Positions 6,281 through 64,000 of a DNA stretch of 64,000 nucleotides are shown piece after piece. Both the position numbers and the translations under genes were made by a program. The DNA is from Longimicrobium sp. (GTDB lineage: Bacteria > Gemmatimonadota > Gemmatimonadetes > Longimicrobiales > Longimicrobiaceae): the NCBI GenBank assembly GCA_036377595.1, contig DASUYB010000015.1, positions 1 to 64,000 on the forward strand, given 5' to 3'. Under the pieces are notes generated by a model. The model had not been told where the DNA came from. It saw only the letters and a program-made list of their open reading frames with translations, and searched no databases. Each line of letters begins with the position of its first letter. The stretch's first letter is position 1.

Positions 6281-6284
6281 TCGG

Positions 6285-7040
<756 letters not shown>

Positions 7041-54520: not shown

Positions 54521-55001
54521 CGGATCTCCCTAAGTTGTTGATTTATCTAGATCTACCTTGCGCCCTGGATACGGCGGAACCGCGGGGGGATCCGCCTTCC
54601 GCACGGAGAGGATGCATTCGCACGGCGGACGTCGCTGGCCGGGAGAAAGGGAACTTTCGTGCCCGGATTTCCGTGCCAAATCGTCAGTTTCCCCGCCGAA
54701 TGCGCGGTGTGTTCCCGGATGCGGCGGACGCAGGCGGCCCCGCCGGTCGCGCAGGTGGTGGGAGCAATCGAAAGCCATCGGCAGGTTTCCGGCCGGGGGA
54801 TGAAGAACGAGGAGCACCTCGATCTCCTTCGATCCCCTTCTCCCCATCAACAATCGCCCTGAAAGGGAATCGAAGTAGATGGGCTCATCCCTGGATCTCC
54901 ATACTTGCGGGCAATCAGATCTCCCTATTCTATTCGTCTCACGTCGTGAAAGACGCGCTATCTCAGCAGACTCGGTCCCTCACCCTGACGGGAGGAGTGC
55001 A
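54521..55001. other. Intergenic region between clpB and the small secreted peptides
   Basis: 481 bases. A weak promoter candidate for the first peptide gene is TTGCGG (54905-54910), a 17-base spacer, and TTCTAT (54928-54933). The left part must hold the clpB promoter, but no clear box was seen. Confidence 0.4.
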
Positions 55002-55244
55002 ATGCCCCGGAACTCCGCTGTTCGCCGCGCCGCGCTTGCCGTGCTGACCGCGGCCTCGCTCGCGTTCGGCGCGCGCGCGGCGCTGGCCAGCCCCGCGCCG
55101 ATGCAGACGTGCACCGACCCCGCCAACTCCGTGGGCTCGTGCAGCTCGACGTCGGACTGCCGCAAGATCTGCAACCGGCTGTCGAACGGGCTGATCCCCG
55201 TGTGCGACACGCGCACGCACTGCTGCAGCTGCCAGAAGCTGTGA
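55002..55244 (+). CDS. Small exported Cys-rich peptide (8 Cys)
   Basis: 80 residues, with GGAGGAG six bases upstream of the ATG. The signal peptide (AALAVLTAASLAFGARAALA) is followed by a mature part of about 50 residues with eight cysteines (QTC, GSC, SDC, KIC, PVC, HCCSC) and several charged residues. This resembles a disulfide-stabilised secreted peptide, such as a toxin, pheromone or small inhibitor, but no family is recognised. A second small Cys peptide gene follows after a hairpin. Confidence 0.7.
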   Translation: MPRNSAVRRAALAVLTAASLAFGARAALASPAPMQTCTDPANSVGSCSSTSDCRKICNRLSNGLIPVCDTRTHCCSCQKL

Positions 55245-55279: not shown

Positions 55280-55300
55280 TTCCCTCACGCAGGAGGCACC

Positions 55301-55510
55301 ATGCCCAGGACGGCTCGCATCCGGAACGTGCTGTTCGGCGCCGCCGTGTGCGCCGCGCTCGGGTTCGGCGCCGCGTCGGCGGCGGCCCACCCGCGCTCGG
55401 CGAGGTCGCCGATCATGGACTCGGCCGCGGAGTGCACCCAGTACTGCACGGCCATCGGCAAGGTGCACTCGAGCTGGGACCCGGTCACCGGCGCGTGCCG
55501 CTGCTGGTGA
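55301..55510 (+). CDS. Small exported Cys-containing peptide (4 Cys in mature part)
   Basis: 69 residues, with AGGAGG upstream of the ATG. Signal peptide VLFGAAVCAALGFGAASAAA. The mature part of about 35 residues has four Cys (AECTQYC and GACRCW). It shares the MPRxxRxR start and the signal peptide pattern with the previous gene but not its Cys spacing, so the two may be remote paralogues. No family recognised. Confidence 0.65.
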   Translation: MPRTARIRNVLFGAAVCAALGFGAASAAAHPRSARSPIMDSAAECTQYCTAIGKVHSSWDPVTGACRCW

Positions 55511-56309: not shown

Positions 56310-59300
56310 ATGCCCTCCATCTCCCGCCCTTCCCTCCTGTTCCGCAGCGTCCTGGCGCTCGCCTCGATCGTCGCGCTGGTGGGGATGGTGCCGCAGCGGG
56401 CGCGCGCGCAGTGCCCGTTCACCGACCCCAACTGCACCGGCAGCGGCACGGCGCCCACGGTGTCGATCGACCCCGCCGGCGGCGCGGTGAGCTCGTCGAG
56501 CGTCCCGGTGACGGTCTACTGGAGCTCGTCGGGGGCGGGGCTGAACGCCTCGTCGCGCCGGATCGTCGTCAACGGCGACACCGTCACCACCTCGTTCACC
56601 TACGAGGGGATCGACACCGACAACGCCGTCTCGCAGGGCACCGTCTCACTGACCGGGAGCGCGTCGGTGACGGTGTCGGCGCGCATCTGCGACCTGCAGT
56701 CCCGCTGCTCGTCGTGGACCTCGGCCACGTACAGCTACCGCCCCTCGCCGCAGGTGCTGGGCACCGGGCAGGTTACCCGCTCGAGGGGCGAGGCGCAGAT
56801 GGAGAACTTCCGCATCGTGAACCGGAGCACCTTCGTCACCGAGACGTATACGCTGGAATCGGTGTGCGACGGCACGACGTCGTGCTCGCCCAGCACGGCG
56901 CGGGTGACGGTGGCCGCCGGCGACACCGCGATCGTCGGCGTGAGCTATCGGCTCGGGACTGGGAGCCTGGAGACGGTCGGCCTGGTGGCCACCGAGACGC
57001 TGGCGGGCGGGCGCGGCTCGTCGAACACCATCGTGGTGGCCACCACCGCCGCGCCGCCGCCAGGCGCCGTGGGCGACCGCGCCGACCTGACGCTGGTGGA
57101 GCGGTCGATGTGCGTCACCGTGTCCGCGGGCCCGGGCGCGGCGTACGAGTGCGGCGACCTGCGCCTGGTGGCGCCGCTGCCGGGAACGCGCGTGCTGAAC
57201 CGGGCGCGCACGCCGGCGCTGATCTACAACAGCCAGCACGCGAAGCCGTATCCCATCGTCGCCGCGCACCTGCTGCGCGACCTGTCGATGCCGCGCCCCG
57301 ACTCGCTCGAGGCGAAGCTGGCGATCAACGGTACCACCATCGCCACCCGGCACTGGGCGGGCTTCCCCGCGGGCGACTCGGCGCGAGTGGCGCTGGGGTT
57401 CGACGCCTCGGGGACGGCGTATCCCACCGGCGCGTACGCCTACCACTTCGAGGTGCGCGCCTTCTACGCCGGCGGCGCCAGCGGCCTCATCTACACGCGC
57501 GACGGCAAGCTGGCGATCGTGAACCGCGGCCTGAGCGACTTCGGCAACGGGTGGTGGCTGGCGGGGCTGGAGCAGCTGCTGCCGGTGAGCGCGCAGGAGA
57601 AGCTGTGGGTGGGCGGCGACGGGAGCACGCGCCTGTACACGCTGGCCTCCGACGGCGTCTCGTGGCTCGGCCCGGCGTTCGACCGCCCCGATACCATCCG
57701 CGCGTCCGCCGGCGAGCTGGTGCGCACCCTTCCCGGCGGCGCGAAGATCTACTACGACGCGAACGGCCGCCACCTGCGCACGGTGAACCCGCTGGGCCAC
57801 ACCACCGCGTTCCGCTACACAGGGAGCCAGCTCGCGCGGATCGTCATTCCCCTGTCGGGCGACAGCGTGGCGTACACCTTCAACTACAGCGGCGGATCGC
57901 CCTCCGCGGCGGCGGGGATGCTGGCCGAGGTGGTGGCGCCGGGCGCGCGCGGGCTGGCCGACTCGGCGCGCGTCGTCCGCCTGGAGACGGTGGGCCGCGA
58001 GGTGACGCGCATCTACGAGCCGCAGTACCGGGGGAACGCGCCGTTCGGGAGCGCGCTGAACACCGCGAAGCCGCACGTGCTCTACACCACCACCGGCGGA
58101 CGCATCACCGCGCGCACCAACCCGCTGGGCGTGCCGAACCTCTTCCGCTTCGACGCCGCGGGGCTGCTCGCCGGCACCGCGCTGCCGCTGGCGCCGGGCG
58201 ATTCCATCAGGCTCGCCTTCCGCCCCGCCGAGTCGCAGGGGATCACGGGACCGGTGGCGCCCTCCGCCGTCTACACGCTACTGGACGGCCCGCGCACGGA
58301 CGTGGGAGATACGGTCCGGTACGTGCTCGACCGCTGGGGCGCGCCCGTGCGCGTGGTCGATGCGCTGGGGTTCGCGACGCAGATCCGCCGCGGCAATGCC
58401 GGCCTCCCCGCCCTGGCGACCTCCGTCGTCTACGCGAACGGCCGCGAGGTGACGGCCACCTACGACGCGCGCGGCAACCTCACCGGCACCACCGACTGGT
58501 CGCACGTGGCCCCCGGCGGCCGCTACGCGGCGAGCGCCTACGCCTACGACGCGCGGTGGGACCAGGTCACGCGCAGCACCAGCGCCGAGGGTCGGACGAC
58601 GGCGACCGCGTACGACAGCCTGGGCCGCCCGCGATGGACGCGGATCGGGCCCGACACCGCGCGGCGGGTGACCTTCCAGTACCGCCCGGGAACGGGCACC
58701 GCGCCGTCGATGGTGGCGTCCGTCACCCAGCCGGCGGCGGGCTCCAATCCGGCGGCGGTGGAATCGTACGACTACGACGCGCAGGGGAACCTGAGCCTCG
58801 TCGTCTCCCCGCTCGGCGTGCGCACGGAGACGCTGTCCGACGCGGCCGGGCGGCCGGTGCGCGTGCGGCAGCAGATCGACCTCCCGCCCGCCACGCCCGT
58901 CTACCAGAGCGATTCGACCATCTACGACGAGCTCGGCCGCGTCGCGCGCACCGAGAGCATCGGCCCGGCCATCGCGGCCTCGCGCGTCGGGCGTCCAGCC
59001 TCGCCCGCGCAGCGGCTGGTGGCGGTCAACACCTACGATTCGGCCAGCCGGCTGCGCACCGTATCCCGTATCTCCGCGCCCGACGAGGCCTCGATCGACA
59101 CCGTCACCACGCGGTTCGAGTACGACGCCGCCGGCCGCAAGATCGCCGAGATCGCGCCCGACACCACGCCGGCAAGCCTGCTCGACAACCCGGTGGACTC
59201 CACCTTCTACGACGCCGCGGGGAACGTCGTCCGCACCCGCAACCGGCTGGGCGAGGTGGTGACGATGCAGTACGATACGCTGAACCGCCTGCGCCGCCGC

Positions 59301-61805
59301 TTCGTCCCCGCGGTCACGCGCACGGGGACGACGGCGCAGATCCTGTCATCGCCCACGTGGTACTTCCCCCTGTTCCGCGACAACGGGACGGGGGCGCTGG
59401 AGACGGCGAACACGACCGCGGCGCTCTCCTTCGTCCTGCGTGGCGACACCGCGGTGTTCACCTACGACGAGATGGGGAACCTGCGCTCGGCGGTGAACCA
59501 GGACGCGTCCGTCACCCGCACCTGGTTCCCATACGGGCTGATGCAGGGCGAGACGCAGCGCATCCGTACCTACGTGGGAACCGACACGACCACGCACGCG
59601 TATCCCCTGCAGTACGCGTACGACCTGGAGGGGCGGCGCGTCTCCCTGACGCTGCCGACGAATCTCGCCCCGTCCACGTCGCAGACCACGCAGACTTACG
59701 CGTGGGACGGCGGCACCGGCGAGCTCCTCGACATCGCCGACGTGCTGGGGACGCACTACCAGTACGCGTATGACACGCGCGGCCGCATCACCACCTTCAC
59801 CCGCAACGGCGTGCAGGAGCGCTACAGCTACGACAACGGCGGGCGGATGACCACCCGCTACGAGGAGCACCTGGCCACGCACCAGGTGCTGCACAACGAC
59901 GTGATGAGCTACGACGGGCGGGGGAAGCTGGCCACGGTGCTCGACCTGGCGACGCCGTCGTTCCCCGACACGGTGCAGAACGAGTACAGCGGCCTGGGCG
60001 CGCTGGCCGGCACCTACCGCATGCGCCAGACGATCGCGGTGAGCGACGAGCGCTTCCACAACGACGCGCTGGGGAACCGCTATGCCGCCGTGCAGCGCAG
60101 CCAGGAGGGCTTCAAGTACACCGAGCCGCCGAACACCAGCGCCAGCCGGTACGAGCGTTACACCGGCCGCATGCGCGTCACCCTCGGCCCGGCGACCACC
60201 GACACGTCCACGTACGACCGCGCGGGAAACCGCACCTTCGTCCTCCGTCAGCAAACCACCACTACGCCGTACGATGCCAACTGCAACGCGAGCTCGTGCC
60301 CGAGCAGCGTGGAGGCCACGCTCATCGACGAGACGGTGCAGTTCTACGGCGCCGAGGGGCGGCTGCGGATCGCGGACCGGCGGGCGTGCCTGAAGTTCAG
60401 CGGCAACGCGAACCAGTGCGACACCAGCCGGCTGCCGCTGGGCAACCAGCGCTCGTCGTTCGAGGAATACCGCTACGACGCGCTGGGCCGGCGGGTGCTG
60501 GTCCGCTCGCGCCAGGCGTACCTCTGCCAGATCAACTGCCAGAACCTCGTCCGCCGCACCGTGTGGGACGGAGATCAGGTGCTCGCCGAGATCCAGGCGC
60601 CGGCAGCCACGGGTACGGCCGCATCGACCATGGAGAACGACCAGTTCCGGCCGAGCGTCAATGCCAACTCGGTGGTGATTCCGTCCGGCCTGCGCGACAC
60701 CGCCGACGTGGCGCCGACGGACACGGTGCCGCAGGCGCAGACGTACGGCGGCTTCCACTTCGGCCGCGTCGTCTACACGCATGGTCCGGGGATCGATGCG
60801 CCGCTCTCGCTGGTACGAATCGCGTATAGCGACTCCATCCCCGCACCGCAGCTGGTGGTGCTGCACAACGACTGGCGCGGTGAGTACGACATCGGCAGTT
60901 ATGCGTTCGGCTCGCTGGCCAAGCCGTGCGTGCGCATCACCCGCAGCTCGCAGTTCCAGACGATCGTGCCGGGCGGACAGGCCTCCGACTGGCCCAAGGC
61001 ACCCAGCCCGCAGAACACGAGCTGGTACCACTGCGTGGAGGTGGAGTGGCCCGCCCCGCACGTGTTCATCACGCGCGAGACCAGGAACCGCAGCCTGAAC
61101 GGCCCCAACGCCTGGGTCGGCACGCTGATCGACGGCATGCGCGACAACAGCGGCCAGATGTACATGCGCAACCGCTACTACGATCCCGCCAGCGGGCGCT
61201 TCACGCAGGAGGATCCGATCGGGCTCGCGGGCGGGCTGAACGTGTACGGGTTCGCGGAGGGGGATCCGGTGAGCTATGATGATCCGTATGGACTAAAGGT
61301 GTGCCTCAGGGGCTCGGCCGCAGAAGTGCGGTATCTCCGCAACATTCTCTCGACCACGGTAGGAGCCTTCCTATCTCTCGACAGGCAAAACTGCATTTCG
61401 TTCATCGGAGCATCGAGACGTTCATCACTACGTGGCCTACGGGATCGGCTCGCATTCATGAATTCCCGCACCCAGGTCTATTCTGTTCGATTCATGTTCA
61501 CGGAAGATACCACGCTCAAAAACGGGTGTATAAACGCAGAATCACACTTCTGTCCACCTGACCTTACAACGGTGATCGACCAGTCGGACTCCGGACGACA
61601 TTTCAATGCAAAATTCTTCGGTTGCAAAGTATCGATGGTGGGGCCGCAAGTCACGGAATCGAGCACTTCGATTGCTGCACATGAACTTCTTGGCCACGCT
61701 TGGGCACACGCTGCCCAATTGGACCCATTCGACGAGCGGATCGCCCACAGCGCGGAAAACGTCTTTCGACGCGCTTTTGGGTTGACACAGCGATGCGGAG
61801 GCTGA
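56310..61805 (+). CDS. Secreted Rhs/YD-repeat protein with HExxH metallopeptidase-like tip
   Basis: 1831 residues. The N-terminus is a Sec signal peptide (VLALASIVALVGMVPQRARA), so it is exported, not a T6SS-type Rhs. A beta-rich N-domain of about 400 residues is followed by many YD repeats (for example YDARGNLTGTTDW), and then the Rhs core motif (MYMRNRYYDPASGRFTQEDP near residue 1620 with GLAGGLNVYGF). The tip, about 165 residues starting after DPYGL, has HELLGH at residues 1791-1796 and AENVFRR near the end, as in Rhs-associated metallopeptidase toxins. Tip DNA is clearly AT-richer than the core. A putative immunity gene overlaps the stop. Confidence 0.9.
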   Translation: MPSISRPSLLFRSVLALASIVALVGMVPQRARAQCPFTDPNCTGSGTAPTVSIDPAGGAVSSSSVPVTVYWSSSGAGLNASSRRIVVNGDTVTTSFTYEGIDTDNAVSQGTVSLTGSASVTVSARICDLQSRCSSWTSATYSYRPSPQVLGTGQVTRSRGEAQMENFRIVNRSTFVTETYTLESVCDGTTSCSPSTARVTVAAGDTAIVGVSYRLGTGSLETVGLVATETLAGGRGSSNTIVVATTAAPPPGAVGDRADLTLVERSMCVTVSAGPGAAYECGDLRLVAPLPGTRVLNRARTPALIYNSQHAKPYPIVAAHLLRDLSMPRPDSLEAKLAINGTTIATRHWAGFPAGDSARVALGFDASGTAYPTGAYAYHFEVRAFYAGGASGLIYTRDGKLAIVNRGLSDFGNGWWLAGLEQLLPVSAQEKLWVGGDGSTRLYTLASDGVSWLGPAFDRPDTIRASAGELVRTLPGGAKIYYDANGRHLRTVNPLGHTTAFRYTGSQLARIVIPLSGDSVAYTFNYSGGSPSAAAGMLAEVVAPGARGLADSARVVRLETVGREVTRIYEPQYRGNAPFGSALNTAKPHVLYTTTGGRITARTNPLGVPNLFRFDAAGLLAGTALPLAPGDSIRLAFRPAESQGITGPVAPSAVYTLLDGPRTDVGDTVRYVLDRWGAPVRVVDALGFATQIRRGNAGLPALATSVVYANGREVTATYDARGNLTGTTDWSHVAPGGRYAASAYAYDARWDQVTRSTSAEGRTTATAYDSLGRPRWTRIGPDTARRVTFQYRPGTGTAPSMVASVTQPAAGSNPAAVESYDYDAQGNLSLVVSPLGVRTETLSDAAGRPVRVRQQIDLPPATPVYQSDSTIYDELGRVARTESIGPAIAASRVGRPASPAQRLVAVNTYDSASRLRTVSRISAPDEASIDTVTTRFEYDAAGRKIAEIAPDTTPASLLDNPVDSTFYDAAGNVVRTRNRLGEVVTMQYDTLNRLRRRFVPAVTRTGTTAQILSSPTWYFPLFRDNGTGALETANTTAALSFVLRGDTAVFTYDEMGNLRSAVNQDASVTRTWFPYGLMQGETQRIRTYVGTDTTTHAYPLQYAYDLEGRRVSLTLPTNLAPSTSQTTQTYAWDGGTGELLDIADVLGTHYQYAYDTRGRITTFTRNGVQERYSYDNGGRMTTRYEEHLATHQVLHNDVMSYDGRGKLATVLDLATPSFPDTVQNEYSGLGALAGTYRMRQTIAVSDERFHNDALGNRYAAVQRSQEGFKYTEPPNTSASRYERYTGRMRVTLGPATTDTSTYDRAGNRTFVLRQQTTTTPYDANCNASSCPSSVEATLIDETVQFYGAEGRLRIADRRACLKFSGNANQCDTSRLPLGNQRSSFEEYRYDALGRRVLVRSRQAYLCQINCQNLVRRTVWDGDQVLAEIQAPAATGTAASTMENDQFRPSVNANSVVIPSGLRDTADVAPTDTVPQAQTYGGFHFGRVVYTHGPGIDAPLSLVRIAYSDSIPAPQLVVLHNDWRGEYDIGSYAFGSLAKPCVRITRSSQFQTIVPGGQASDWPKAPSPQNTSWYHCVEVEWPAPHVFITRETRNRSLNGPNAWVGTLIDGMRDNSGQMYMRNRYYDPASGRFTQEDPIGLAGGLNVYGFAEGDPVSYDDPYGLKVCLRGSAAEVRYLRNILSTTVGAFLSLDRQNCISFIGASRRSSLRGLRDRLAFMNSRTQVYSVRFMFTEDTTLKNGCINAESHFCPPDLTTVIDQSDSGRHFNAKFFGCKVSMVGPQVTESSTSIAAHELLGHAWAHAAQLDPFDERIAHSAENVFRRAFGLTQRCGG

Positions 61806-62371
61806 CCGTGACGAAATTGCGCCGATCACCCGTGCTGGGTCCGGCCTTCGTGGCAGGGCTCTGCACGCCTTTTTGCCTAGCGGTCATCGGGAATCTGACC
61901 CTTCAGAACGGTATCTTCTATTCGCTCGCAGCGTTCGGAGTAATCGGCGCCGCAGTGCTCTGGGGGCGATCGCGAGCTTTCACGGTTGGATGGAGCCTGA
62001 TGCTGCTCGTGTGGTTCAGCCTGTTGGGCACGACAGGATCCAACGCCCAGTGGAATATTACTGCCATTCTCAGACTGATTTCTGACGGCTTTGTGCTATG
62101 GTGTTCAATGGCACTCCCCCTCGCGGGCGCACACTATGTGTATTTGCTCTTGTCTCACTCTTCAATCCAGCGCCGGACACTGTTCCTCATGCTGGGTATC
62201 TGGTTGATCGTCTTCGTCGCATCTTCTCGTCTGTCACGATTTGCGCCCGATGTCGGTGCAAACCCGCGCTACCATCCATTCGTCACTTGGATCGGGGGAC
62301 CTGCGCTCGTGGTTCTCCCGCTCGTTTTCTCGGTCTGCTTGATGATCATTTCATTGCAGGACCGGTCGTAA
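61793..62371 (+). CDS. Multi-pass membrane protein, probable immunity to the Rhs tip
   Basis: 192 residues with about five membrane segments (LGPAFVAGLCTPFCLAVIGN, IFYSLAAFGVIGAAVLWG, WSLMLLVWFSLLGTTG, VLWCSMALPLAGAHYVYLLL, LMLGIWLIVFVASS, ALVVLPLVFSVCLMIISL). The ATG at 61793 overlaps the rhs stop by 13 bases; GTG at 61808 is an alternative. Immediate position after a variable tip and low GC fit an immunity protein, but no known family is recognised. Confidence 0.55.
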   Translation: MRRLTVTKLRRSPVLGPAFVAGLCTPFCLAVIGNLTLQNGIFYSLAAFGVIGAAVLWGRSRAFTVGWSLMLLVWFSLLGTTGSNAQWNITAILRLISDGFVLWCSMALPLAGAHYVYLLLSHSSIQRRTLFLMLGIWLIVFVASSRLSRFAPDVGANPRYHPFVTWIGGPALVVLPLVFSVCLMIISLQDRS

Positions 62372-62584: not shown

Positions 62585-62616
62585 AAGCCCCGCCGAGATG
62601 ATCTCCGGCGGGGCTT
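62585..62616. terminator. Bidirectional terminator hairpin
   Basis: 11-bp perfect stem AAGCCCCGCCG/CGGCGGGGCTT between converging genes, the immunity gene (plus) and the peptidase remnant (minus). Confidence 0.7.
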
Positions 62617-62642
62617 CGTCGTCGTTCACGCCACAACCGGCC

Positions 62643-62850
62643 TTACGGTCCCAGCAGGATGGCGTTCAGCAGGAGCGGCTGGCTGGAGCGCCAGAACAGG
62701 TGGAAGAGCGGGTCGTCGGCGAAGAGGATGATGCTGCCACGGCCCATCTCTTTCGTCACCAGCCATCCCTCCTGCCCCAGCCGCCCCACGTTCTCGGGCG
62801 AGATCACGCCGGAAAGCCGCTCCGGCGCATGCGGGAAAGTAGACGACCGG
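62643..62850 (-). pseudogene. C-terminal remnant of an M14-like carboxypeptidase
   Basis: Minus-strand translation reads HAPERLSGVISPENVGRLGQ, then EGWLVTKEMGRGSIILFADD and FWRSSQPLLLNAILLGP, with TAA at 62645-62643. Tails of this kind (...GRGxVxLFADDPxFRxFW...NAILLGP) are common at the C-terminus of M14-type metallocarboxypeptidases in this lineage, from memory. The 5' part has been replaced by the displaced rhs fragment, so this is a remnant. Confidence 0.5.
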
Positions 62851-62930
62851 ACGGCAGCCTGTTTCCACGCGCAGTAACAACTTCATCCCCGCGCCGCAGC
62901 TGGTGGTGCTGCACAACGACTGGCGCGGCG

Positions 62931-63710
62931 TGGCCCGCGCCGCACGTCTTCATCACGCGCGAGACGCGGAACCGCAGCCTGAACGGCCCCAACGCCTGGG
63001 TCGGCACGCTGATCGACGGCATGCGCGACAACACCGGGCAGATGTACATGCGCAACCGCTACTACGACCCTGCGAGCGGCCGCTTCACGCAGGAGGATCC
63101 GATCGGGCTCGCGGGCGGGCTGAACGTGTACGGGTTCGCTGCGGGGGATCCTGCGAACTATGCTGATCCATTTGGTTTGTCCTGTCAGGACAGCCGTGGA
63201 CGACAGATTCCATGTCCACCGAACGTCGGTGAGCTTGGCCTTTCAGTTGTGATCACGTATCCAGATGGTACTATCGCTATTCGAACGGGAGGAACGCGGG
63301 CATGGCGCAACAACAATCCTGGAAATCTTCGCTCTGGCAGCTTTGCACGGTCGCAAGGAGCGATCGGAGAAACGCACAACGGCGGTAACGGTGATTTTGC
63401 AGTGTTCCCCGACTTCGAAACAGGCGAGCGTGCGCAGATGACCCGTATCACCACAGGGGTCTATGCAGGACTAAGTCTCGACGCGATGATTGCCAAATAC
63501 GCTCCGCCTTCAGAGAACAATACCCCGGCATACCAAGCTCATGTGCGAAACGCGACCGGACTAAGCGGAGACGTCACCGTTGACCAACTTCCTCCGGATC
63601 AACTACGATCGGTGGTAAAGGCCATGCAAAGCCATGAGCACTTCAGAGCTGGCAAGATCCGCGTATATTCCTGCCATGGAATCTTGGGTCCGTGCTTGGG
63701 AGCGAACTGA
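62931..63710 (+). CDS. Displaced (orphan) Rhs tip with muramidase-like C-terminal domain
   Basis: Homology to the preceding rhs core resumes at WPAPHVFITRETRNRSLNGP and continues to MYMRNRYYDPASGRFTQEDP. There is no start codon of its own; the open frame extends back to 62598 as unrelated sequence, and an earlier fragment (PQLVVLHNDW) lies in another frame. The variable part after GFAAGDPANYADPFGL is AT-richer and carries RAWRNNNPGNLRSGSFARSQ, GAIGETHNGGNGDFAVFPDF, ETGERAQMTRI, and SLDAMIAKYAPPSENNT. This resembles the lysozyme-like domain of phage structural protein P5 used in polymorphic toxins. It would only become expressed by recombination into a full rhs gene. Confidence 0.7.
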   Translation, partial: WPAPHVFITRETRNRSLNGPNAWVGTLIDGMRDNTGQMYMRNRYYDPASGRFTQEDPIGLAGGLNVYGFAAGDPANYADPFGLSCQDSRGRQIPCPPNVGELGLSVVITYPDGTIAIRTGGTRAWRNNNPGNLRSGSFARSQGAIGETHNGGNGDFAVFPDFETGERAQMTRITTGVYAGLSLDAMIAKYAPPSENNTPAYQAHVRNATGLSGDVTVDQLPPDQLRSVVKAMQSHEHFRAGKIRVYSCHGILGPCLGAN

Positions 63711-63711
63711 T

Positions 63712-64000
63712 ATGAACCACATGCCTCGTGCACTACTGGTGATCAACGCCATTGTGATCTCTGTTTTGGGCTGTAGGCCAGATCAACCCCAAACTGGTCA
63801 GAACAAGGTGGCGCAGGCCGATTCGTCGTAGCAAGTTCAGACGATCTCACACGAACACCCGTGTGTTCCCTTCGAGCCGAGCGTCGTCACATTGAGCGGA
63901 CAGTTGGTCATTTCCCCGAGATTTGGACCTCCAAATTTCGGAGAAACGCCTGACGAGGACGAGAAACTGCAGATTCCTTTCCTGATCCTGGAGCACGAAG
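63712..64000 (+). pseudogene. Lipoprotein immunity gene (DUF4431-like) split by an in-frame TAG, running off the window
   Basis: ATG one base after the orphan tip stop gives MNHMPRALLVINAIVISVLG followed by the lipobox Cys (VLGC). A TAG at 63829-63831 ends translation after 39 residues. The same frame then stays open to the window end (56 codons): HEHPCVPFEPSVVTLSGQLV, FGPPNFGETPDEDEKLQIPF, LILEHE. From memory, this fits DUF4431-like lipoproteins (CxxxEPxxVxLxGxL...FGPPNFGE). The most likely reading is an immunity lipoprotein for the muramidase-like tip, inactivated by a nonsense change, or a readthrough or sequencing error. Confidence 0.65.

Follow-up and report, generated by a model that had tools for sequence, protein, structure and literature searches.

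Organization of the Rhs locus

The window, a 64,000-nucleotide stretch of Longimicrobium sp. DNA, carries a complete Rhs open reading frame (positions 56310-61805, plus strand; 1,831 amino acids), followed by a gene for a 192-residue membrane protein and by displaced pieces of Rhs sequence (Table 1). A sequence-only reading of this DNA had described a secreted, non-T6SS-like Rhs protein, and that description was borne out in part. RHS repeats and an Rhs-associated core were detected above family cut-offs, with PF05593 (RHS_repeat) in Pfam at E=1e-29 and TIGR01643 and TIGR03696 (Rhs_assc_core) in NCBIfam, and the first 33 residues read as a Sec-type signal peptide with ARA/Q cleavage and a hydrophobic peak of 2.53 at residue 13. 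Several Rhs proteins of the same genus have similar exported N-termini. Neither a PAAR nor a VgrG domain was reported for the Rhs protein, and the description as not T6SS-like thus stands for the protein itself; the genome nonetheless encodes a T6SS sheath protein (VipA, at G000:C150:82172-82630), on another contig and far from the Rhs locus.

Repeats and core, combined with a variable tip behind a DPxGL junction, place the protein among the Rhs polymorphic toxins, and motifs of the DPLGL kind are sites of aspartyl self-cleavage in Rhs proteins (PMC8636562). With described Rhs toxins that have displaced tips (PMC3482391, PMC8636562) the locus shares the YD-repeat shell, the autoprocessing junction, the variable tip, the downstream partner gene, and the orphan tips; those toxins carry PAAR or VgrG, whereas the protein studied here carries a Sec signal peptide. 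The locus most likely belongs to a polymorphic-toxin system in a bacterium of Longimicrobium type (Gemmatimonadota). No RHS_repeat gene was found above threshold elsewhere in this genome, and up to 17 Rhs junctions were counted in congener genomes. Upstream of the Rhs gene lie two adjacent small open reading frames (54999-55244 and 55300-55510), each encoding a signal peptide and a cysteine-rich end, CTDPANSVGSCSSTSDCRKICN...CCSC in the first and CTQYCTAIGK...CRCW in the second.

Table 1. Features of the Rhs locus, in window positions
Feature	Positions	Strand	Basis or remark
Sec-type signal peptide	56310..56408	+	Residues 1-33; N-terminus MPSISRPSLLFRSVLALASIVALVGMVPQRARA/Q; ARA/Q cleavage; sequence reading
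Rhs body (N-terminal region, RHS/YD repeats, Rhs-associated core)	56310..61295	+	Pfam, NCBIfam, comparison with G312
Autoprocessing motif DPIGLAGGLNVYGFAEGDPVSYDDPYGL	61212..61295	+	DPLGL-type aspartyl autocleavage motif
C-terminal tip, 169 aa, putative HExxGH zincin toxin domain	61296..61802	+	Homology break with G312, GC3, tip-family membership
HELLGH (HExxxH), putative zinc and catalytic motif	61680..61697	+	H129, E130, and H134 invariant in 7 homologues
E147-x-x-A ... E154-N155-x6-G-x3-R166, putative third ligand and [DE]N motif	61734..61793	+	Motif pattern comparison
Candidate immunity, 192-aa membrane protein, about five TM segments	61793..62371	+	187 aa if GTG 61808 is the start
Duplicated Rhs core end ahead of orphan tip 2	62880..63179	+	93-96% identical to 60832-60880 and 61043-61285 (blastn)
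Orphan tip 2, lysozyme-like cell-wall hydrolase (NPGNLR...FAVFPDFETG)	63180..63710	+	phmmer; junction DPFGL
Lipoprotein start, presumed immunity to orphan tip 2	63712..63831	+	Cut by in-frame TAG 63829-63831

The tip as an exchangeable cassette

The Rhs body had a third-position GC content (GC3) of 0.95, the tip one of 0.58, and the following gene one of 0.67, in agreement with the AT-rich tip noted earlier. In a congener (G312), the Rhs protein shares 70.5% identity with the window protein over residues 1-1665 before passing into an unrelated tip, and nucleotide homology between the two stops at 61291, with the tip starting five bases further on. As the body is common to both and divergence sets in precisely at the tip, the latter is regarded as a cassette, as had been proposed; the natural swap in G312 and the orphan tips that carry copies of the core end both corroborate that proposal.

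The earlier account had passed over two displaced orphan tips downstream, one at 62880-63831 and one just past the window. The first, orphan tip 2, matched two PDB entries in a phmmer search (9vvp, Gp29, E=1.5e-9; 7q47, endolysin, E=0.006). Behind it, the interrupted lipoprotein gene continues in frame beyond the end of the window, and this remainder exceeded the cut-off of DUF4431 (PF14485, E=1.5e-5). A third copy of the core end (contig 64402-65364, outside the window) leads into orphan tip 3, a homologue of the window Rhs tip with a lipoprotein gene behind it. The core-end copies ahead of orphan tips 2 (62880-63169) and 3 are 93-96% identical to the core end of the full Rhs gene. The DNA behind orphan tip 3 (L061, 5920-6160) has a nearly identical counterpart at 62600-62830, so the orphan units were apparently inserted with flanking DNA attached, and the open reading frame 62598-63710 begins in flank DNA rather than at a true gene start. 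The tip cassette is probably exchanged by recombination with such displaced orphan tips, which carry copies of the core end. A congener array (L069; G032 C13:135000-152000) holds one full Rhs gene and several orphan tips, some with HExxH and exported partners, which makes it rich material for comparing types of tip with types of partner.

A tip family with an HExxxH motif

As a lone query against genome contigs, viral contigs, and plasmids, the window tip found no close relatives, and the family was reached only through a three-tip profile combined with whole-genome searches. Profiles built from three tips (A2) and then from seven (A4) were run on 395 Gemmatimonadota genomes and recovered nine copies in seven genomes, three of them degenerate or cut; minus-strand matches in one further scan were mostly unrelated chance matches. 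Wherever the context was readable, family tips lay directly behind an Rhs junction, and the window tip matched three other members in pairwise BLASTP at E=4e-6 to 7e-7 (small database). Cys3, Cys33, a mid-tip cysteine, and a C-terminal Arg-Cys recur in each of the six complete tips, and these four conserved cysteines suggest two disulfides.

The tip matched no known peptidase in Pfam, NCBIfam, or the PDB by HMM or profile; a PDB match to MccD (E=0.5) and other weak PDB profile matches were judged to be chance. Since these searches gave no match and the profile comparison with peptidase family M91 also failed (see below), the tip was assigned to a new family, which on present sequence evidence occurs only in Gemmatimonadota and is not described in the sources searched. 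The novelty, as judged here, lies in the tip family and not in the kind of system, of which it appears to be a variant among the metallopeptidase tips of polymorphic toxins.

The hexapeptide HELLGH had been read earlier as HExxH. That spacing was contradicted throughout the family: the second histidine stands at +5 in all seven readable tips (HELLGH, HEVLGH, HELIGH, HELNHH, HELTHH, HELFRH, and HEIYHH), and this histidine, the first histidine, and the glutamate are invariant at identities down to approximately 20%. Three tips (HExxHH) have an extra histidine at +4, and the classical spacing is therefore possible in those three, whereas only the +5 position is common to all seven. The downstream AEN motif was found as described (AENVFRRAFG, 61752-61781), and every complete family tip has, after the zinc motif, an E-x-x-A followed by [ED]N-x6-G-x3-R. 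E147, in the helix after the zinc motif, is the probable third zinc ligand.

HExxxH, though rare, is an established zinc motif. It occurs in dipeptidyl peptidase III (M49), whose hexapeptide is likewise HELLGH (PMC5667867); in TldD, where the additional residue distorts the helix (PMC5810440); in tubulin carboxypeptidases (TMCP; PMC10499314); and in some peptidases of phage polyvalent proteins (PMC5512222). An AlphaFold2 model of the tip built from two sequences had a pLDDT of 40, and its weak secondary structure placed HELLGH and E147/E154 on two successive helices. A small metallopeptidase of the zincin type, its zinc helix expanded to HExxGH, is the most likely identity of the tip.

The membrane protein and the partners of related tips

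No Pfam or NCBIfam family was found for the multi-TM protein, as had been stated, and searches of 395 genomes at E below 1e-3, of plasmids, and of viral contigs returned no homologue outside its own genome. Its start codon is probably GTG 61808, which lies six bases after a GGAGG (61797-61801) within the last codons of the Rhs gene and 2 nt past the Rhs stop, rather than ATG 61793. With GTG 61808 as the start, the 13-nt overlap with the Rhs gene disappears; the overlap reported earlier thus holds only if ATG 61793 is used.

In the loci compared, the next gene encoded a lipoprotein, a signal-peptide protein, or a TM protein behind all 12 zincin-like tips (tip-family members or HExxH tips) and behind 8 of 17 other tips (Fisher p=0.003; partners classified by eye), a trend rather than proof because the sampled tips are related and not fully independent. 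In one branch (G200, G025, and G026) the toxins are homologous and so are the exported partners (E down to 5e-49), as expected of cognate pairs. The envelope partners and the four conserved cysteines together suggest that the tip acts in the envelope. Related non-zincin tips in two further loci from two genomes (L066, ending at 6281, and L073, ending at 6507), with motifs HQMGQC/HQYGQC ... TADLHEAE-like, each have a lipoprotein gene behind them, the two genes being similar in sequence, and constitute another envelope toxin pair.

The window partner is polytopic, whereas the partners of related tips are lipoproteins or signal-peptide proteins. Position and envelope location favor the earlier proposal that the membrane protein is the immunity, and its missing homologues and the different partners of related tips count against it. 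The same two observations would suit a toxin whose true immunity lies elsewhere or has been lost, the 192-residue protein being something else; we consider this rather unlikely in view of a gene that sits directly behind the Rhs stop and a GGAGG, is as AT-rich as the tip, and encodes an envelope protein like the other partners, and in view of the varied anchoring of metallopeptidase-toxin immunities (PMC6899460). The precedent is VgrG2bC-ter/PA0261, in which a metallopeptidase toxin acts in the periplasm and the immunity family includes periplasmic, lipoprotein, and TM-anchored forms (PMC6899460). Like that pair and Tpe1/Tpi1, the locus would combine a metallopeptidase or metallopeptidase-like toxin with an envelope immunity that differs in anchoring among relatives (PMC6899460); VgrG2bC-ter and Tpe1 differ from the tip in having HExxH and in T6SS delivery on VgrG, and the tip gave no credible match to any solved structure in the PDB. 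That the 192-residue protein is the cognate envelope immunity is plausible and the most likely assignment.

Comparison with known metallopeptidases

Comparison of the tip with the Tox-MPTase and M91-like families had been suggested earlier. Tox-MPTase1-5 are defined by HExxH (PMC3482391), and membership was unsupported for a tip that has HExxxH and matches no Pfam model. Membership in M91 was likewise unsupported by HMM or profile: none of the seven family members matched PF14891 (Peptidase_M91) above the cut-off, hhalign of the tip family against an M91 set gave probabilities of 2-34% from thin profiles and aligned the motif helix at most, and all readable members have HExxxH in place of the HExxH of M91/Tox-HopH1. 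The second motif is nonetheless shared. Among 102 sites (distinct HExxH or HExxxH occurrences in six-frame open reading frames of the compared loci), the occurrence of [DE]N-x6-G-x3-R within 55 residues was confined to members of the tip family and two M91-type proteins. PF14891 had identified one of these two in a relative's genome, and similarity to it had led to the other, in Paraburkholderia; shuffled tails yielded the pattern at 0.0007-0.004. Tox-HopH1 was described by Zhang et al. as 'HExxH, [DE]N' (PMC3482391). Tox-HopH1/M91 resembles the tip in having a metallopeptidase motif and, behind it, [DE]N-x6-G-x3-R with the same spacing. A remote common origin of the tip family and M91 is possible.

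This shared spacing, found in no other HExxH or HExxxH frame of the compared loci, and the agreement with the published Tox-HopH1 signature are also what would be expected if the tip were a divergent HopH1/M91-type protease acting in the target cytoplasm, with the membrane protein blocking uptake or being unrelated. We regard that as quite unlikely, given the HExxxH of the tip, the lack of overall similarity in hhalign, and the conserved cysteines and lipoprotein or exported neighbors, which point outside the cytoplasm and set the tip apart from Tox-HopH1/M91.

The window tip agrees letter for letter with the HExxGH hexapeptide (HELLGH) of dipeptidyl peptidase III. Membership in M49 was rejected, the EExR(K)AE(D) second motif being absent (the tip has E-R-I-A...E-N instead) and M49 models and structures showing no sequence match to the tip; M49 is, moreover, a large housekeeping exopeptidase, whereas the window feature is a 169-residue toxin domain. 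TldD, TMCP, and the phage polyvalent metallopeptidases share the HExxxH zinc motif with the tip and no sequence similarity.

Proposed mode of action

In the model that we favor, Sec would export the Rhs protein, the YD-repeat shell is expected to hold the 169 C-terminal residues inside, and the tip would be released through aspartyl autoproteolysis after DPYGL. H129 and H134 would bind zinc, with E147 as the probable third ligand and E130 as the catalytic base. The released tip, stabilized by disulfides, would probably be active in the envelope of a rival cell, its entry into that target being presumed, and the 192-residue protein, translated from the Shine-Dalgarno sequence inside the last codons of the tip, would most likely neutralize it there. 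We judge this whole model, a Sec-exported Rhs protein with a freed zincin-type envelope toxin, a membrane immunity, and a swappable cassette, to be moderately probable. Counted against it are the pLDDT of 40, the lack of matches to known peptidases, the polytopic orphan nature of the partner, and the T6SS sheath gene elsewhere in the genome.

The rarity of HExxxH and a fold that was not predicted with confidence would fit a motif that is not catalytic, in a tip that kills otherwise or has lost its activity; H, E, and the +5 H, together with E..A..[ED]N, are invariant across seven tips whose identity drops to about 20%, which makes that very unlikely. A cell-surface Rhs adhesin with a nontoxic tip, as Sec export and the absence of a dedicated delivery domain in the Pfam and NCBIfam searches might suggest, is highly improbable beside an autoprocessing junction, tip swapping, and orphan tips with adjacent genes, all hallmarks of polymorphic toxins, and beside an orphan tip that is a cell-wall hydrolase with a lipoprotein gene behind it.

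Significance of the tip family

A literature search found no work devoted to the weapons of Gemmatimonadota as such, and these are little studied. Rhs tips are a large reservoir of unknown antibacterial enzymes, and in a 2012 survey nearly all metallopeptidase tips were without a listed immunity protein (PMC3482391). The family described here is coherent, with recognizable envelope partners and a rare HExxxH zinc motif. We suggest, tentatively and with somewhat more doubt than confidence, that it constitutes a new family of antibacterial zincins, so far confined to Gemmatimonadota, which would act in the periplasm through a zinc helix of the form HExx[GHR]H as in dipeptidyl peptidase III and whose envelope immunities would have switched class, from lipoprotein to polytopic, between relatives. 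With this tip family one can test directly whether zincins with an expanded helix are able to act as antibacterial toxins, and also how immunity class shifts within one toxin family.
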